The notes beneath the pieces were generated by a model. It worked only from the letters and a program-made list of their open reading frames with translations, ran no database searches and was not told the origin of the DNA. DNA of 64,000 nucleotides from Marasmius tenuissimus. Lineage: Eukaryota > Basidiomycota > Agaricomycetes > Agaricales > Marasmiaceae. Within the stretch, counting starts at the first letter, position 1, and each line of letters starts with the position of its first letter. This document shows, in pieces, positions 22,573 through 52,707 of this stretch. The stretch is taken from NCBI GenBank assembly GCA_029532415.1, contig JAQOTA010000046.1, forward strand, positions 1,178,001 to 1,242,000. Direction: 5' to 3'. The position numbers were made by a program, and so were the translations under genes.

Positions 22573-22746
22573 CTTATCCAATAACTATATTGATGTGGGA
22601 GTAGAGACCTCGGTCGTGCCTTAGTACTTGTGACGCTTTAGATAGGTTTCGACCTCAATCATAGACTCGCGTGGCCAGTACGTTATGTCTCGTTGATGGG
22701 TTGATGGGCAGGAGCACGAGACATAACGACTGGGCTCAACATCGCT
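22573..22746. other. 3' flank of stalked gene B, insertion site of the helicase/DUF6589 element
   Basis: Non-coding. The right-hand continuation of this flank is at 29603 onwards, where sequence similar to the 3' flank of stalked gene D (about 54770-54850; shared AAATCCCAAATGG) is found. Confidence 0.45.
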
Positions 22747-22754
22747 CCAAAAAC
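22747..22754. repeat. Target site duplication, left (8 bp)
   Basis: CCAAAAAC here and CCAAAAAG at 29603-29610, directly outside the inverted repeats; seven of eight bases agree. Confidence 0.75.
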
Positions 22755-22793
22755 CGTGTCACGGAAATGTGACAAAGGACTTAGTGAAATTTC
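22755..22793 (+). repeat. Left terminal inverted repeat (39 bp)
   Basis: Begins CGTGTCACGGAAATGTGAC and continues AAAGGACTTAGTGAAATTTC. The reverse complement of 29564-29602 matches except at positions 9, 23 and 34. The repeat contains its own small palindrome, GTCAC..6 nt..GTGAC, a plausible protein-binding site. Confidence 0.85.
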
Positions 22794-22972
22794 GCACTCC
22801 CGTCTCACCCAGTCTGGCAGCAAAGCTTGAACTTCAGCAGCATCCCATCCTCTCGAACTTCAAAAATGCGTAGATAGGATGATTATATTGGCCTTCAGTA
22901 GCATAAGGTAAAATTAGGGATAAAAATTGATATAGACCATCATAGATAGCATTATTGCTGCGCGGGCGACGT

Positions 22973-25960
22973 CTACCAGCCAGGTAGCCCATAACTAGTG
23001 TTTCTCTGCTCCTCGTAATGTGTAAAGGAGCCAGTGGCGTCGTCGCGAGCGGGGTAGGTGGTTGTGGAATGATGGTTGTAAGGGTAAGGTGTAAATTGGC
23101 CGAACGTGTGTGTTGGATATGTGGTTCGGTGAGTGGTGCTGTACACTTGAGGGGTGGAAGGATGAAAAGGGTGATTTGAAGTCCTACGGATGCTATATGC
23201 GTTTGCGGGACCTGTACTTGGTGCTGGAGAGGCCGAATTGTGAGGAAAAGAATGAACATTTGATACAGGGCTGAAATATGTTGTAGCTGATGGCGGTTGC
23301 AGCCTAGTATACTGGTCGTGCCGTTGCTGGGGTGTAGTAGAACCATTCAAAGGCACCGTGAAGTCGTATTGCGCGGGAGAAAACATGTACTGAACCGAGT
23401 TTTGGGCGAGCTGCTGCGGGTATGAGTTGACTGAGACTGGCCTCGGGCTTGGTGACGGTGTGGTAGGGGCAGCAAGGCGCGGGAACAACGTAGTTGTTGT
23501 TGAGTGAGGTGCCTCGCAGTGTATGCCAGAATGCCGTTGTGCTGAATTGGGTGTTGGATATGCTGTGAGCAGACTGAAAGGATCTCGTGGGGTGTGCGAA
23601 GTTGCCGGTCTGGTTGAAGGAACAGGCGTTCCGGGGTATGGAAGCGAGGGAAATAGTGCTGTTTGTAGACGATGGTGGTGGTGGGAGGAAGAGTTGACAG
23701 TGTCTGGCCTCGTGTCCGACGTTACTGCGGGTGTTCTCGGCGGCTGTATATTCTGATTCGACGACGTCGATGATGTCGTTCTCGCACGCTTTTCACTCCC
23801 TGCCAACACCTCCCCTTCAGCCATCTCTGGTTCCTTTCTCTTTGTAGCAGCAGACGTTTTTTGACCCTCTTTCACCTTTTTCTTAAACGGTGGAATTGTG
23901 AGTTTTGAGATATAATTCCATAGATCAACACCATGTTTGTCCCACCAACTCCAGTGACCAAGGACCATCTTCAGCCGCTTGGTAGACGGAATTGGACCCG
24001 TAGAAGCCAAGAGCTCGAGGTGAGAGTCCGAAAGTATTCCCTTGAAAGACCACTGTGAACCTGAATGATGGCGTTCATAGGTGTCGACCCGCCATTTGTG
24101 GATGGCGAGCTGCGTTGCTTTATCGAGCTCACCCTTTTCGACACCGGATTGACGAGGGGTTGAAGTATATTTTCCGGGACGACAGCGATCAAGGAGAGTT
24201 GGATCACACACGTCGCAGCAAGAGCGTCTAGAAGGGGCTAGGACACGGTGAGTTCATGGATGCGAGTTGTTGAAATGAGTTCACTCACGCAGTGCTTGAT
24301 TTTTATAGATGCTCGTTAGGATCTCGCGGCGACACTTGCCAGTGAGTACAAACGCAAGGAGATTCTCGTCCTTGGCTGTCGGTAGCAAGGTCGGTTCCCA
24401 TCCCTTCTGGGGCAACACATCGGATAATCCACTATGCGATCCTCGTTTGACTCCCTGCCGCTCTGCTACCTTCTTCCCTGTGCCCTTGGAGTATTCACCA
24501 GCTGTCTCGGCTGACGCTTTACTGTTCTTTTTGCTCTTTCCTCCCCCTTTGGACCCCTTTTCCTCGAGTTTCTCGCAGTCTAGTCCATACATTGACTTTT
24601 CAACCAGTAGAACTGCCAGACCGGTGCGCCCATGCCCTCGTGCCGCCCTTCCAGCTCGCTGAATCCATATAGAAGTCGTGTCCGGCAGTTTCCATTGAAC
24701 AACAACATCAATATCTGGGATGTTGCAACCCTGTTCACATTGCAATTGAGGTTAGCGTTGACACAGTCGGCCGTTACATTTTCCACTCACCATACCCGCA
24801 GCATCTGTACAAATGAGGACACGAACCCCATTATCTGACCTGAAGTCATTCATCACGGCTTTCCGATACTTTTTCGAGTATGCGGCGCTATACGGTCGAA
24901 TAATATTCTTGTTCCGAAGGTGCTCTGGCAGCAGGGACTCCAAGTGGTCTTGGATATCAGCACCGGTAGCAACATTGTCGGCATAGATGAATGTCTTTGG
25001 AATTGGGGATTCTGGTGTTATGCGAGGTGGTATAACGAAATCAAGGTCTCGGTATGTGTTCATCGCATGTTCCATAGCGCGTACAACAAGAGAAACATTG
25101 GGCCGGTCGTTCCCAATGTCTATATTGATGAAACTGTTGGGTCCTGATCTTGAGAAGTGAAGCTTCGAGGTTACATCGTTTCGAACACGAGGTGAGAGGG
25201 TGGCAGACAGTGCCGCAAATGGAACGCCTTTCGGGAGTAATGCGCGAAGTATACCCAGTTCCCCGTATTTCTTTCGGAAACCTCCTCCCCAGTGAGAGAT
25301 GACATGCGCTTCGTCCACCACCACTGAAAGAATTCTCTTTCGAAGCTCTGCATTCCTCAGGACCTTGTCGATGAAGCGCTTTGTCAACATCATCTCTGGT
25401 GAGATGAGTACCACCTGGTACTTTCCCGAACAGATTTCCTTCAATGAGAGGTTAGTAGACTGCTATTACTGACCGTAACTCGTGCTTACCATCAGGTTCT
25501 GTGCTGCCAAACCATCATGAGCGCTATTGATAGCAATTGTGCTCAATCCGTACTCCTCTCGAAATGTCTCGGCATGTTCGTCCTGAAGCGCGATCAACGG
25601 CGACACAACAAAAGTCACTTTTCCCGCAGCGAGTGGATGTGCATGAGGTGCGGCGATTATCAGGGATTTTCCTGCTCCGGTGTGGGCATGAATGAGACTA
25701 TCGCGTTGGAGAAGCTGCGCTCGTGCAGCTTCTTTTTGGAATGGCTTCAAGTCGAAACTGAGGTGGAACTTGCTCTTGATACATTCATCAAGGTTCTCAA
25801 AGTCTGCGAGGCGTGGTTGTGGAACCTCTTTCGGTTTCGAGGTTTTGTTGGCTGTTCGTCCCCCTTTTTGTTTGGCGTTCTTCCTCCTCGTCTGATAGTT
25901 GGACTGTGGATGTTTCGATTGGGTCGAATGAATGGTATTATGGGCTCTAGTTGGTGGCAT
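22973..25960 (-). CDS. RecQ-like DEAH-box DNA helicase (941 aa, 4 exons)
   Basis: Exons 25960-25490, 25438-24791, 24730-24289 and 24237-22973 join in frame. Motif order is that of a superfamily 2 RecQ-type helicase: a Q-like region, Walker A AHTGAGKS (~residue 103), VSPLIALQDEH (Ia), DEAH in VVVDEAHVISHWGG (II), ALSATL (III), then in the second RecA lobe KTFIYADN (IV), VRVLICTDAAGMG (V) and QRAGRAARG (VI). It should unwind DNA 3' to 5' with ATP. After the helicase core comes a Lys-rich linker, a cysteine cluster (CCDVCDP..C, about 24190-24230) that may bind zinc, and a long Pro/Ser/Thr/Tyr-rich disordered tail (about 24000-22973). The start at 25960 is the first ATG of the frame. It shares a 96-bp promoter gap with the divergent DUF6589 gene and lies inside the inverted-repeat element. 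No lesions. Confidence 0.85.
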
Positions 25961-26056
25961 TAAAAGTGAGAGGTAGAGTAGAAACAAAGGTAATGGTCAA
26001 GAGGTAGGGAGATTTTGAAATTTTGCATCCGCGACTTCGTCTCTGCTTCCACAGTC
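25961..26056. promoter_or_regulatory. 96-bp bidirectional promoter between helicase and DUF6589 genes
   Basis: Only 96 bp separate the two start codons, so both transcripts must start within it or inside the neighbouring gene. No clear TATA box was seen. The compact arrangement should couple expression of the two proteins. Confidence 0.6.
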
Positions 26057-29000
26057 ATGGCCACACCACCTTCCAGTCCCCCTCGAAGCTCCCCCACCCC
26101 AGGTCAGAACGACAGTAATATTCAGCTAGATCTCCTCGATCCCCTGCTTTCATGCCGCCTACCGTCAAAAAATCTTCCGCCAAGCTCTCCACTTTCCTCC
26201 GTGCCTCCTAGCCCAACTCCTATAGTCGAGGCAGATCCCACAACCCCTGCGGCGGCCGACTCGTCAGATGATCCAGGAATCATGTCCACCGATCCGATCG
26301 TTGGCTCGCCCGCTACTCAGAAGAGAATTCGCCATGAAAAATCTCAGGCAAAGCGTGCGACTACTCTGGCTGCAAAGAAGGCAGCTCGGGCACATGAAGC
26401 TGCAATAGCGGCTGAGGAGGCACGGAAAAGGAAGTGCCAATACTTTCACGACGTACTAGTAAAGCTAAATCAGGAAGGGTTCACTTTCGGGGAGCTGCTG
26501 ATGCACTTCCTTGATCCAGATAATTGGGAGGGTAGCGTGCGGTGGCACCAGTTTCTTGCGGCACCAGGGCGTCTTGAGCAGATTTTAGATTGGTTTGTGG
26601 GTGGCCAATACCCCCCTTCTGTCCGTTACAGAACGCAGGAGTGGGCAGTCAAGACGACATGTGAAGTGGTGGGGGAAGAGGCAGCAACAATCACCAAGTC
26701 TGGGCTCCTCAAAACACACAATCGGGACATCAACGAGGAGTTTATCATGTCCTACAATCTCCGAGACTACTATGATAAGCTGAAAGATGGGGGTGCAGGG
26801 AATATCCTCCGAGTATTTGAAGCGGTGGCCTACTCACAGCGCCATCCCACATTCACGAAACAGCGGAAACTACGAGGACGGGTAGTAAGTCATGTTCAAC
26901 TTCTACTGGGTTACCATTCAGAGAGTAACTCACAATGATATCAATAGATCGTGACTTCTTCCGTTATTGGATGTCTGGGAGAACGGAATCACTTCAACAA
27001 TCTGCCGCAGAGGATGATGTCCATGTACTTGTATTCGAACGGCGCACAGCGACAGTTAATCACAGTCTTGTCTCGCCTCGGGGTGTGCGAAAGCTATCCG
27101 ACGTTGACTCGGAACGAAACCGTGAAGCCCAAGGAAGGCCGTGTAGTCGCAGTCAGGCAGAAGCCATCACCCAATGTCATGGATGGGAAGAGACTTGGGG
27201 TCTTGCGGCGCTTGTCAGTCTCCATGCGCGAACAAGCTCGGAACCTAGCCCAAACAGGGCTGATGGAGGAGATCTTCGATAATATTAACTTCCAATCATA
27301 TGTGGCGGAGCAGAAAGTGGGAAGCCATAGTGAGTCCTAAGGTTCTTATTTTTGTGTCTTATGGTCGGCCTAATGTTTGTTTGTATGGCTTCTGCGCAGC
27401 TACACAGGAAAATGGCACCTGCCAGACCATAGTCGACCTGTGGAAGGCAGAGTTAGACTCCCTCAACACTTCGAAGCTGATAGAAGCCTTCCTACAATCC
27501 CCACCACTTTCTCTTTTCAACATCGTCCATAATAACGAGGAGCAGCTCCTATTTCGGCACTGTCTCGTACACGACATCGTCCAAGTTGCCATTGATTTCA
27601 GTGGACAGGAGAAGCTCAAGTCGTTTCGGGTTCTTGCAGAACAAAAGCAGCCACGGTCAGAGTACAAGATCGAGGTTCACAAGACTCGGGTCTATCCTCT
27701 TCCTGCTCTCAATATAGACGAGTCAACAATCAAGGGAAACGCTGAGGTGGATGAGGCACGGGTGAAGGAGTTGAAACTTGATGAGATCATTCAGTTTTGG
27801 GAGCGAGGGCGCCTCATTGCAGGTGATCAGCTGTCACTGGCGCGACTTCGTGCTCTACAGAATATCCGCGCTGGGCAAGAAGGCGATTACGAGGCATTGT
27901 TGTCGCACATCCTGATCCCAGGGATCTTCCATATCAAGATGGCGGACATGACAGGCTTCGTTCCAACACACTTTGGCCGTGTAGGCAATCCGAGCTGTAT
28001 CGCTCACGACAACACGGCACTGAACCGCCTTCCTATTACCATCACTTCACTTCCAAGCTACCGAATATGCCGCGACATCGTCTTTGTGTCGTACTATGCA
28101 CGAGTACTGCAATGTCTCCTGCTCGTCTCAAACAAGCCAACACTGAAGGCCTACGCTGATTCAGTAGAATCCTTCCAACAACTCCAGGATGACGCCGCAA
28201 AGGTGTACGACAGATTCGCGAATACAAACACGGTCATCAAGCTGCGTTCCGAGAGAGAGCTCAAAGGAAAGGGCCATGGAGACGTTGTATTCGAGAATGC
28301 CGTATTGTTTCTTCGCGACGCCTTGTATTCTTACGAGCTGACAAGGGCAGTGAAGGCCGGGGACTCTGGCCGTGTCGTATTGGTACTCAAGATTTGGGCG
28401 CTGAGCTTTCGGGGAAGTGGCCGCACGAAGTATGCGTACGAGATGTTGCATCTGATACACAACCTCACTCACGTATGGCCCAAGGAAGTAGTGTGAGTAA
28501 CAATTTTATTCTGCTCGAGTTACGACTAAAATGTGACCTAGAAAAATCGTACTGAACAACTGGTTAGTCAATACGTCGGGAAAGGCTAACCGCTTTCTGG
28601 AGGCGGACTTACTTCAAGAGCACCTCAATTATTGGATCAAGGTGATTTCCGTGGAAACCAAGCTCGAGCTTCCTCTTGATCTCGAATTCGCAGGTTTTTT
28701 TCAAGGCGCACGGCAGTAATATGTCCTGGGACTGGATCGCAATGATTGCCCCGTGTGTAAATATCCTTCGACATCTGGCCAACGTTATGAACGAGACACT
28801 CGGTGCACGACAGGGCTCGCGCCATAGCTCTGTGGACCTGCAAAAAGATATTGGCGTGTTGATGAAAAATCTTCAGGAGCACCAGGTGTACGAGGTTCAA
28901 AACGGCCGGACTGTTGATGATGACGACTCGCAGATCTTCAAAGACAATGTCACTGCAGGAATAGAGGCATTGACGACGGGCAGCGACAATCCACTCACCG

Positions 29001-29482
29001 AGTATAACCGGAATTTTCGACGGCTTCAGAAGCGACGTCGAATGCCGCCAGTCAAAACTGATCCTACCCCAGCTCCCGCCCAACAACAGAACGACACTCG
29101 AGACTCGAATTCTACCGCTTCTTCATCCATCCCAGTTCACGACCATACCACAACCCCTTCACTGAGCGCTTCCACCTCAGTTCAGAACTCGTGTCAACCT
29201 CCTAATTTCGATTCTGCTGACCCCTCCTGTCTTGAGTCTTTGTTACCTGGCGTTGAGCGGGAGGGAGGCCATAATGATGATGTCGAGACCGAGGAATTGG
29301 TTAGCGAGTCGTGTATTGAGGAAGAAAATTTAGGTGCCGAGTTTCTGGAGGCAGAGAACGGGGAGGAAGAGTTGATGTTTGAGATGATGACGGAGAGCGA
29401 TGTCGAGCTCAATTCTGGAGACGAAGAAGACGAATTGGCCAATGATTTCGGGGAGACTGACTCAGAAGATGAGGATGAATGA
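26057..29482 (+). CDS. DUF6589-like protein, candidate transposase partner (1,063 aa, 5 exons)
   Basis: Exons 26057-26884, 26948-27329, 27400-28492, 28542-28641 and 28694-29482 join without a break. The N-terminus (~1-95) is Pro/Ser-rich and disordered, then a basic Ala/Lys helix (KKAARAHEAAIAAEEARKRK), then a large globular part. The most conserved-looking stretch is GDQLSLARLRALQ followed by IPGIFHIKMADMTGF, the GDQL..FHxKM pattern I associate with DUF6589 proteins, and YRICRDIVFVSYYARVLQCL. The last ~200 residues are acidic and disordered (DSEDEDE end). DUF6589 has no established biochemistry; an RNase-H-like nuclease is a hypothesis based on its place in a TIR-bounded element. ATG at 26057 is the only one in frame upstream of conserved sequence. 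No lesions. Confidence 0.75.
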
Positions 29483-29563
29483 AGTATGATAGACTTGCGA
29501 AGGATACGTGCATTGTGACTGCAAAAGACGTATATTTGCGTCGAGGACGTTGTAGTCGTACAT

Positions 29564-29602
29564 GAAATATCACTAAGTCTTTTGTCACATTTCTGTGACA
29601 CG
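29564..29602 (-). repeat. Right terminal inverted repeat (39 bp)
   Basis: Ends ..TTCTGTGACACG; inverted copy of 22755-22793 with three mismatches. Confidence 0.85.
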
Positions 29603-29610
29603 CCAAAAAG
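29603..29610. repeat. Target site duplication, right (8 bp)
   Basis: CCAAAAAG, against CCAAAAAC at 22747-22754. Confidence 0.75.
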
Positions 29611-30280
29611 CGCGACTTGGAGCCCAGCCGTTCTCCTTACCTCTTTCTCTGCCATGTGCTCATTCCCCTTTTGGAGAACGGCTGGAACCGAGCCTACCTC
29701 AATCAAAGTGCTTTCAGAAGCTTGGTTCGGTGGCTGATGTGGCTGCCACCGGCACCGGACCGAGCTGGGATCGATTAATCTTGAGGCTGTGCCTCGGCGA
29801 TAAATCCCAAATGGCACGGAAGAGGGTTTTACAATTACCACCAACATCTCGGATTTCTATGTCTCCAATCGCCACTACTCACCCCTTCTGGACGCTCAAA
29901 TATACCTCCTACGCCATATCTCTCCCATAAACCTCATCATCCACAAGCCTACCATCACCACTCGAACCCTCCATTAGAATCGGTCAAATTTGCGCTTTGT
30001 TTGCTCTCGGCAGTCGACTTACATGACCAGACAGACAAGATGCTTGTAGGTGGTGACGACTACCATTGCTACTACCCAAGGGTTGATGAGAGAGGGGTCT
30101 TCACGAGATGACGAACAATAGCAGCCACACCATAGGGCGAGAGGAGTCGTTTCATATTCGTGAGTATCTCCATGATAATTACTGAACATCGATGACACAC
30201 GCCACCTTTTCTCATCGGCATACATGACACTGTCAAACCTTGTTCATGAATGCTTATAAAGTTAGCTTACAGATTGGCGA
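29611..30280. other. Host flank, no gene recognised
   Basis: The part near 29740-29860 resembles DNA downstream of stalked gene D (54770-54860), so it is the continuation of the 3' flank of stalked gene B. A short minus-strand hydrophobic segment (LINPWVVAMVVVTTYKHL, about 30025-30090) may be a remnant of a membrane protein exon. Confidence 0.4.
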
Positions 30281-32571: not shown

Positions 32572-32757
32572 CACATAGTCACAGGGGGTCCATACGAAAT
32601 GTTCCCGTATGTGACCAAAATCTGGACAGCCTAAAAAAGCCAAAAAATGACCTTTTTTGGCCCAAGTTGAAGGGTTAGGGCAAATTTCAGCGGGCGGCAG
32701 CTAATGCCGCCGCCATTCTTCTCACATACGTGCTCCCAGCTGCCAAGGGCTTGAGAG

Positions 32758-33212
32758 TGTTGAGCCAGCATAGTTAAAGTGCACAGTGGGTATAACAAAG
32801 TAAACCTCACATGGGTAATACACAGAGTGTTCTTGTAGACTTGAGATGCTTGTGAAGAGGTGTTAATCGAGTAGATTGTCCTAAGGCTTAAGGCCTTGGA
32901 ATACCAGCTTTTATACACAAGTTTCTGTACATGTAAGAGTAATTACAATACTATGAAACTACTACTAGAAGTAGGTATTTAGCCAATACTAATGAGTCTA
33001 TTGTCCGTTGTGCCTCGCACTTTGGACTATGAGCATCATACTTGATGTAACTAATACGTAGTAGATATCTACAGTGTCATTTGTGAAGCAATAACTACGT
33101 AGATACATTCTTGCATGAGAGCGCAAGTGTTCCTAGAGGCGTAGCTCTATAAATAGTGTGACGCGTAAACAACACGTCAATATGTATCACATGATATCCA
33201 TCATGTTCAACA
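32758..33212 (-). repeat. Copia 3' LTR
   Basis: 455 bp, TGTTGAGCC..GTTCAACA. Appears identical to 52132-52586. Confidence 0.9.
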
Positions 33213-52119: not shown

Positions 52120-52131
52120 GGGCCCATAACC
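52120..52131 (-). promoter_or_regulatory. Copia primer-binding site, half-tRNA-iMet type
   Basis: On the minus strand GGTTATGGGCCC directly follows the 5' LTR. It is complementary to the anticodon stem-loop of initiator methionine tRNA (..GGGCCCATAACC..), the internal priming used by copia and Ty5. Confidence 0.75.
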
Positions 52132-52586
52132 TGTTGAGCCAGCATAGTTAAAGTGCACAGTGGGTATAACAAAGTAAACCTCACATGGGTAATACACAGA
52201 GTGTTCTTGTAGACTTGAGATGCTTGTGAAGAGGTGTTAATCGAGTAGATTGTCCTAAGGCTTAAGGCCTTGGAATACCAGCTTTTATACACAAGTTTCT
52301 GTACATGTAAGAGTAATTACAATACTATGAAACTACTACTAGAAGTAGGTATTTAGCCAATACTAATGAGTCTATTGTCCGTTGTGCCTCGCACTTTGGA
52401 CTATGAGCATCATACTTGATGTAACTAATACGTAGTAGATATCTACAGTGTCATTTGTGAAGCAATAACTACGTAGATACATTCTTGCATGAGAGCGCAA
52501 GTGTTCCTAGAGGCGTAGCTCTATAAATAGTGTGACGCGTAAACAACACGTCAATATGTATCACATGATATCCATCATGTTCAACA
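52132..52586 (-). repeat. Copia 5' LTR
   Basis: 455 bp, appears identical to 32758-33212; followed by the target duplication GAGAG. Confidence 0.9.
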
Positions 52587-52707
52587 GAGAGTTCTATACG
52601 AAAATTTTTTTTCAGTCACCGGTCACTCACTGCTCATACGAATTCACCCCGGAGAATTTTTGTGTCACACGAAAAACCCCATACGAATTGATTGAAATAG
52701 GTCAGTA

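Follow-up and report, generated by a model that had tools for sequence, protein, structure and literature searches.

A putative AcademH-kind DNA transposon pairing a RecQ-like helicase with a predicted DUF6589 transposase in Marasmius tenuissimus

The window examined in this study is a stretch of 64,000 nucleotides from the basidiomycete Marasmius tenuissimus (contig JAQOTA010000046.1, positions 1,178,001 to 1,242,000). Window positions 22662-29696 very probably form an AcademH-kind DNA transposon, autonomous in appearance and moved by a DUF6589 DDD transposase with a RecQ-like helicase as its partner. The ends of the element, its duplications, its copies, equivalents of two empty sites and the recurrent pairing of its genes were observed directly. 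Copies and relatives elsewhere in the genome are referred to by locus (L) and contig (C) numbers.

The M. tenuissimus genome searched comprised 71,056,785 bases in 70 contigs. Alignment of copies gave one common unit, from window position 22662 to about 29700, outside of which the flanking sequences diverge. The shared extent, 22662-29696, is 7035 bp long. Its termini form a short terminal inverted repeat, TAGRCTCG, in which 7/8 positions match between the window ends, and a perfect 9-bp target-site duplication lies immediately outside. The features of the element are listed below.

22653..22661, no strand: left target-site duplication CCTCAATCA, identical to 29697-29705, with different 9-mers at other copies
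22662..22669, no strand: left terminus TAGACTCG, where the shared unit starts in copies and relatives
22675..22733, no strand: left terminal hairpin, stem CCAGT + CGTTATGTCTCGT against ACGAGACATAACG + ACTGG (z -5.52, 0/200 shuffles as good)
22755..22793, no strand: left subterminal inverted repeat, containing a GTCAC...GTGAC palindrome and starting 93 bp inside the left end
22973..25960, minus strand: RecQ-like SF2 helicase gene, spliced model of 941 amino acids, four exons (25960-25490, 25438-24791, 24730-24289, 24237-22973)
26057..29482, plus strand: putative DDD transposase gene of the DUF6589 family (PF20231), spliced model of 1063 amino acids, five exons (26057-26884, 26948-27329, 27400-28492, 28542-28641, 28694-29482)
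29564..29602, no strand: right subterminal inverted repeat, ending 94 bp inside the right end
29624..29685, no strand: right terminal hairpin, stem CCAGCCGTTCTCC against GGAGAACGGCTGG (z -4.35, 1/200 shuffles as good)
29689..29696, no strand: right terminus CGAGCCTA
29697..29705, no strand: right target-site duplication CCTCAATCA, a perfect 9-bp match to the left one

A first-pass annotation of this DNA had ended the transposon at the 39-bp inverted repeats, with CCAAAAAC/CCAAAAAG directly outside them as the duplication. The repeats themselves are real. They are 92% complementary, they lie directly outside the gene pair, and the next-best inverted pair listed within 10.5 kb is 30 nt long at 73%. 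However, L030, L031, L033 and L034, all at other sites, carry CCAAAAAC/CCAAAAAG as well and go on matching the window copy for another ∼85 bp on the left, differing by at most a base or so. On the right side, ∼85 bp beyond the repeat are also common to L030, L033 and L034, the exception being L031, whose right end is truncated. These letters therefore belong to the mobile unit; they are internal to it in 5/6 sequences inspected, the diverged L032 lacking them. In addition, a 133-bp derivative (L076) has a 9-bp duplication yet, by eye, no 39-bp repeats. The copy alignment thus ruled out a transposon that ends at these repeats and is flanked by an 8-bp CCAAAAAC/G duplication, a version to which we give practically no chance of being correct. 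The repeats are subterminal, the real boundary is 22662/29696, and the actual duplication is the 9-bp CCTCAATCA.

Searched against its own genome, the DUF6589 exon gave 29 matches, of which 3, including that of the window, were 99-100% identical across the whole query. The sibling copy L030 differs from the window copy at 42/7035 bases (99.4% identity). In L030 the transposase differs at 6 amino acids and its reading frame is intact, but two internal stops interrupt the helicase. In the window copy both genes are open in the spliced models and lie on opposite strands, so the intact divergent pair reported earlier stands. The element is real and apparently complete, and it looks recently active. 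The termini TAG[A/G]CTCG...CGAG[C/T]CTA recur in L035, a relative of 6909 bp with about 48% identity in the searched DUF6589 exon, the same divergent gene pair and the duplication GGATAACCT. The same termini bound five non-autonomous elements, 1043 to 1309 bp long (L044, L045, L066, L068, L071), and the miniature derivative L076:30-162 (C57), which has a perfect 9-bp duplication and, by eye, also lacks part of the right hairpin.

Duplications were examined at 17 insertions. An exact 9/9 match was present in 13: the window copy, L030 (TCTCGCCAG), L031/L032 as a unit (CATCACCTG, left of L031 and right of L032), two C20 copies after exchange, L035, L044, L045, L066, L068, L071, L076, and the nested C10 element. 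The outer C10 element has an 8/9 match, and L069, L070 and L074 have no duplication. The comparison was made by script for the window, L030, L035, L044, L045, L066 and L068, the nested C10 duplication was printed, and the remainder were read by eye. Nine loci with one end only or with mutated ends (L036, L037, L038, L047, L067, L072, L073, L075, L077) stand outside this count. Empty sites were sought for 3 of 11 built junctions, those of the window, L066 and L068, the last two chosen for their repetitive-looking flanks. Equivalents spanning the joined flanks with no length change were found for L066, the best covering 170 bases at 96%, and for L068, covering 180 bases at 93%; the window's own junction had no equivalent elsewhere in the genome. 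Of what the first-pass annotation had looked forward to, other copies were found and empty sites appeared for 2/3 junctions, while its 8-bp duplications proved to be 9 bp long. Shared ends, 9-bp duplications at other sites and two empty-site equivalents agree with its view that the element is mobile.

The DUF6589 protein is likely a DDD transposase. A database protein, PM082_018646, has the same length as the 1063-amino-acid model and matches it with 100% identity throughout the region searched, and in a Pfam scan of open reading frame (ORF) pieces the central exon matched PF20231 with an E value of 1.3e-98. Structure prediction yielded an RNase H-like transposase fold, for which the closest solved folds are DDE transposases: Hermes (hAT), the P element, RAG1 and Transib. 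The likeness presumably extends to helices inserted into the RNase H-like core ahead of the final acidic residue. Foldseek alone found nothing in the PDB at E values up to 0.001. Three aspartates are invariant in the DUF6589 alignments, D387 (YDN or FDN), D546 (GDQLS) and D790 (EVDLLQEH). Thus the proposal that this protein is the likely catalytic component gains a predicted fold, and of the acidic triad expected around GDQLS and FHIKM, the GDQLS residue holds while FHIKM gives way to D387 and D790. Duplications are 8 bp in hAT and P elements and 5 bp in Transib, and these elements are not known to carry a RecQ helicase; the present element differs from them in duplications that reach 9/9 bp and in its RecQ-like helicase.

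Seven ORF pieces were scanned against Pfam. The MULE transposase domain PF10551 (number from PMC8290104) was not listed for these pieces up to E 0.1, and a distant relationship to MULEs may exist; no HUH domain was matched among the seven. Rfam had no match within the window. Protein searches returned the closest 120 of 339 rows and the closest 120 of 133 rows. In all 240 rows listed PF20231 is the sole Pfam domain, and the named rows, by reading, are all fungal. A distant DUF6589 query aimed at the Academ superfamily had only DUF6589 rows, fungal where named, among the matches listed. A second large DUF6589 clade (L013, L016, L023, P0121-P0240) is about 20% identical, and in its 15 aligned rows all three aspartates are conserved. 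An inverted-repeat search around its helicase-less loci L013 and L016 found no convincing termini. A less expected outcome, judging from the predicted fold and these residues, is that the Pfam family DUF6589 resembles a transposase domain.

Over its first 552 residues the helicase scored highest with the RecQ family (TIGR00614, E 3.6e-49) and, among structures, with RecQ, WRN and BLM. The score of 167.8 bits is below the curated cut-off of 219.8, and the protein is therefore a divergent RecQ member. Its role as partner of the DUF6589 protein, proposed earlier, is supported by recurrence of the pairing across mushroom genomes. Using equal contig size in bp as a proxy for the same contig, 38/120 listed DUF6589 relatives shared a contig with a listed helicase relative (best 120 rows in each case), and organism names, by reading, agreed in 38/38. 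The paired contigs include one of 6,886 bp from Pluteus cervinus and one of 7,141 bp from Schizophyllum fasciatum, and one pair has consecutive locus tags (JAAARDRAFT_62157/62158). In the second DUF6589 clade 0/120 listed rows share a contig size with the listed helicases, a control weaker than it appears, as 41/120 of those rows are on contigs under 6 kb, perhaps too short for a partner.

AcademH, a lineage of Academ DNA transposons, has terminal inverted repeats. The present element resembles AcademH in its TAGRCTCG ends, in encoding a RecQ-like helicase inside those ends (as does L035), in its fungal host, and in a DDD/E transposase, here a predicted fold with three invariant aspartates. 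The available text of PMC10045372 gives AcademH duplications of 9 or 10 bp, matching the 9 bp found here, and an encoded helicase to which duplication size seems related. AcademH is reported to occur in low copy numbers in the Basidiomycota, Ascomycota and Mucoromycota (PMC10799480, in part), as are putative non-autonomous Academ elements in Marasmius oreades (PMC8290104, in part), and a RecQ helicase was named in Academ already in 2013 (PMC3627910, in part). The first-pass annotation knew of no description of such an element; these accounts, as far as their available text goes, supply one (PMC10045372, PMC3627910). Because the duplication length, the helicase and the fungal occurrence match the published AcademH and Academ descriptions, the element was filed as a new family of the AcademH kind, reportedly defined by Kojima (2020, Mob DNA 11:15), to which it is likened by described features. 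The terminal hairpins and 39-bp subterminal repeats are possible differences from AcademH.

As the comparison with AcademH is one of described features, one might instead propose a new DDD transposon superfamily, neither Academ nor any other named one, which acquired its RecQ-like helicase independently and makes 9-bp duplications. The 'unknown function' annotation of PF20231 in Pfam and the 240 rows with this domain only, all fungal where named, would suit that proposal, but these rows are only the closest of 339 and of 133, and it therefore means little that neither animals nor a nuclease domain appear among them. With the helicase, the 9-bp duplication and the fungal host all fitting described AcademH, we regard a new superfamily as improbable and retain the AcademH assignment. 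KolobokH is likewise a fungal DNA transposon with a RecQ helicase and a DDD/E transposase, the available text giving TTAA (4 bp) duplications and a helicase downstream of the transposase (PMC9587614). The present element shares the fungal host, the helicase and a predicted DDD/E transposase and differs in its varied 9-bp non-TTAA duplications and divergent helicase gene. Helitrons encode a helicase and have hairpins near their ends (PMC3627910), together with an HUH nuclease (PMC12730594), according to the parts of these papers available. The present element resembles them in its transposon-borne helicase and in hairpins close to its ends. Helitrons are not known to have terminal inverted repeats or target duplications, whereas both are found here along with a DDE-type predicted fold.

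Each terminal hairpin, a less expected feature, is a foldback directly inside its 8-bp terminus. Hairpins are also found in relatives, with z values of -4.03 at the L044 left end, -5.03 and -6.10 at the L035 left and right ends, and -7.70 at the right-type end of L046. A stem is at the expected place in 12/13 left ends, L073 being the one without, and in 18/18 right ends; stems are imperfect in L030 and L071 on the left, and in L035, L065, L067, L071, L075 and L077 on the right. The left stem sequence varies between elements (CGTTATGTCTCGT, CGGTATGGCAT, GTCGGTAGGTGAACCT) with arms still complementary, and the left loop is conserved among closer elements. Covariation in the hairpins appears modest. 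In the left hairpin, 2/14 pairs change on both sides (9 rows, 7 distinct), and 1/500 shuffles reach the covariation score while 138/500 reach the number of two-sided pairs. L035 (unalignable), L045, L070 and L073 were dropped before this count, and an earlier 8-row left alignment with L035 was uncounted. In the right hairpin the count covers the L035 type only (five rows, 4 distinct), giving 1/19 pairs and 148/500 shuffles; the 13 other right ends were left out, their 11-row alignment being too short to use.

As the left stem changes while its arms stay complementary and the loop is kept in closer elements, both hairpins might be functional ends recognised by structure, on which the transposase and RecQ-like helicase may act jointly in extruded or single-stranded foldback form. 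We consider this unlikely on balance. Palindromes that have become imperfect could also be repaired, and their arms kept matching in that way. If the reading is true, the helicase of a DDD transposon would open or resolve its hairpin ends, and to our knowledge no DDE element is known to work like this.

Several copies are rearranged. L033 and L034 (C20, about 60.6-62.6 kb and 76.1-78.0 kb) are two internally deleted copies in opposite orientation, each flanked by its own duplication on one side and by that of the other copy on the opposite side (ATTCAACCG, GTGTGTGTT). Such an exchange is what recombination between two insertions would be expected to leave after inverting the ∼13.5 kb that separates them. 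In the tandem L031:1300-8043/L032:44-7130, L031 lacks its last ∼70 bp and directly abuts the related L032, with a single duplication CATCACCTG outside both. A likely course is insertion of L032 into the right end of L031 followed by recombination of the duplicated ends, which explains the tandem only in part. The left flank of L031 resembles the degraded left end of a further related element. At C10 5332.6-5344.1 kb (L046:307-1405, L078, L065) a small related element is nested in the left terminus of another, with duplication GACTCGCGT. The size of the outer element is due to an inserted Copia-like retrotransposon (ORFs, by eye) with ∼524-bp long terminal repeats (LTRs), 97.7% identical to a stretch of L037. 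Separately, window positions 32754-33212 and 52131-52590 are about 90-93% identical, in pieces, to the L037 segment corresponding to the Copia-like LTR, and are probably solo or partial LTRs.

A hairpin at each end, an element-encoded helicase, and the element-to-element joins at L031/L032 and on C10 could suggest a replicative or single-strand element (peel-and-paste, rolling-circle-like) that uses hairpins and helicase as in Helitron-type or IS200-type transposition. The C10 double element was ruled out as an end-to-end join or rolling-circle chimera, the join being an ordinary nested insertion with duplication GACTCGCGT. The exact 9-bp duplications, short terminal inverted repeats, DDE-type predicted fold and lack of an HUH match in the seven ORF pieces scanned also argue against this mode of movement, which we consider very improbable. 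We infer cut-and-paste rather than replicative movement; any role of the terminal hairpins is hypothetical. In cut-and-paste movement, the DUF6589 transposase would bind the ends and excise the element, and insertion would occur at staggered cuts whose repair would leave the 9-bp duplication. The RecQ-like helicase would most likely unwind or process the ends, or assist repair of the donor gap.

In the open-access literature searched, no published link between DUF6589/PF20231 and a transposase was found, although these proteins may already fall under an Academ profile of Muszewska 2017. What appears new here is a complete family with good ends, together with the identification of DUF6589 as its probable transposase, no report of which was found in that literature; the kind of element, AcademH, was already described. 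A large Pfam family of unknown function is thereby tied to a predicted DDD transposase fold in which candidate catalytic residues can be named. For one member that carries a helicase, the exact ends, the length of the duplication and non-autonomous derivatives are now given. On this basis, transposon-gene annotations could replace the label 'hypothetical protein' for hundreds of entries in mushroom genomes. The window copy, in which both genes are open and which has a sibling at 99.4% identity, offers an entry point to why a cut-and-paste transposon would encode a RecQ-like helicase.
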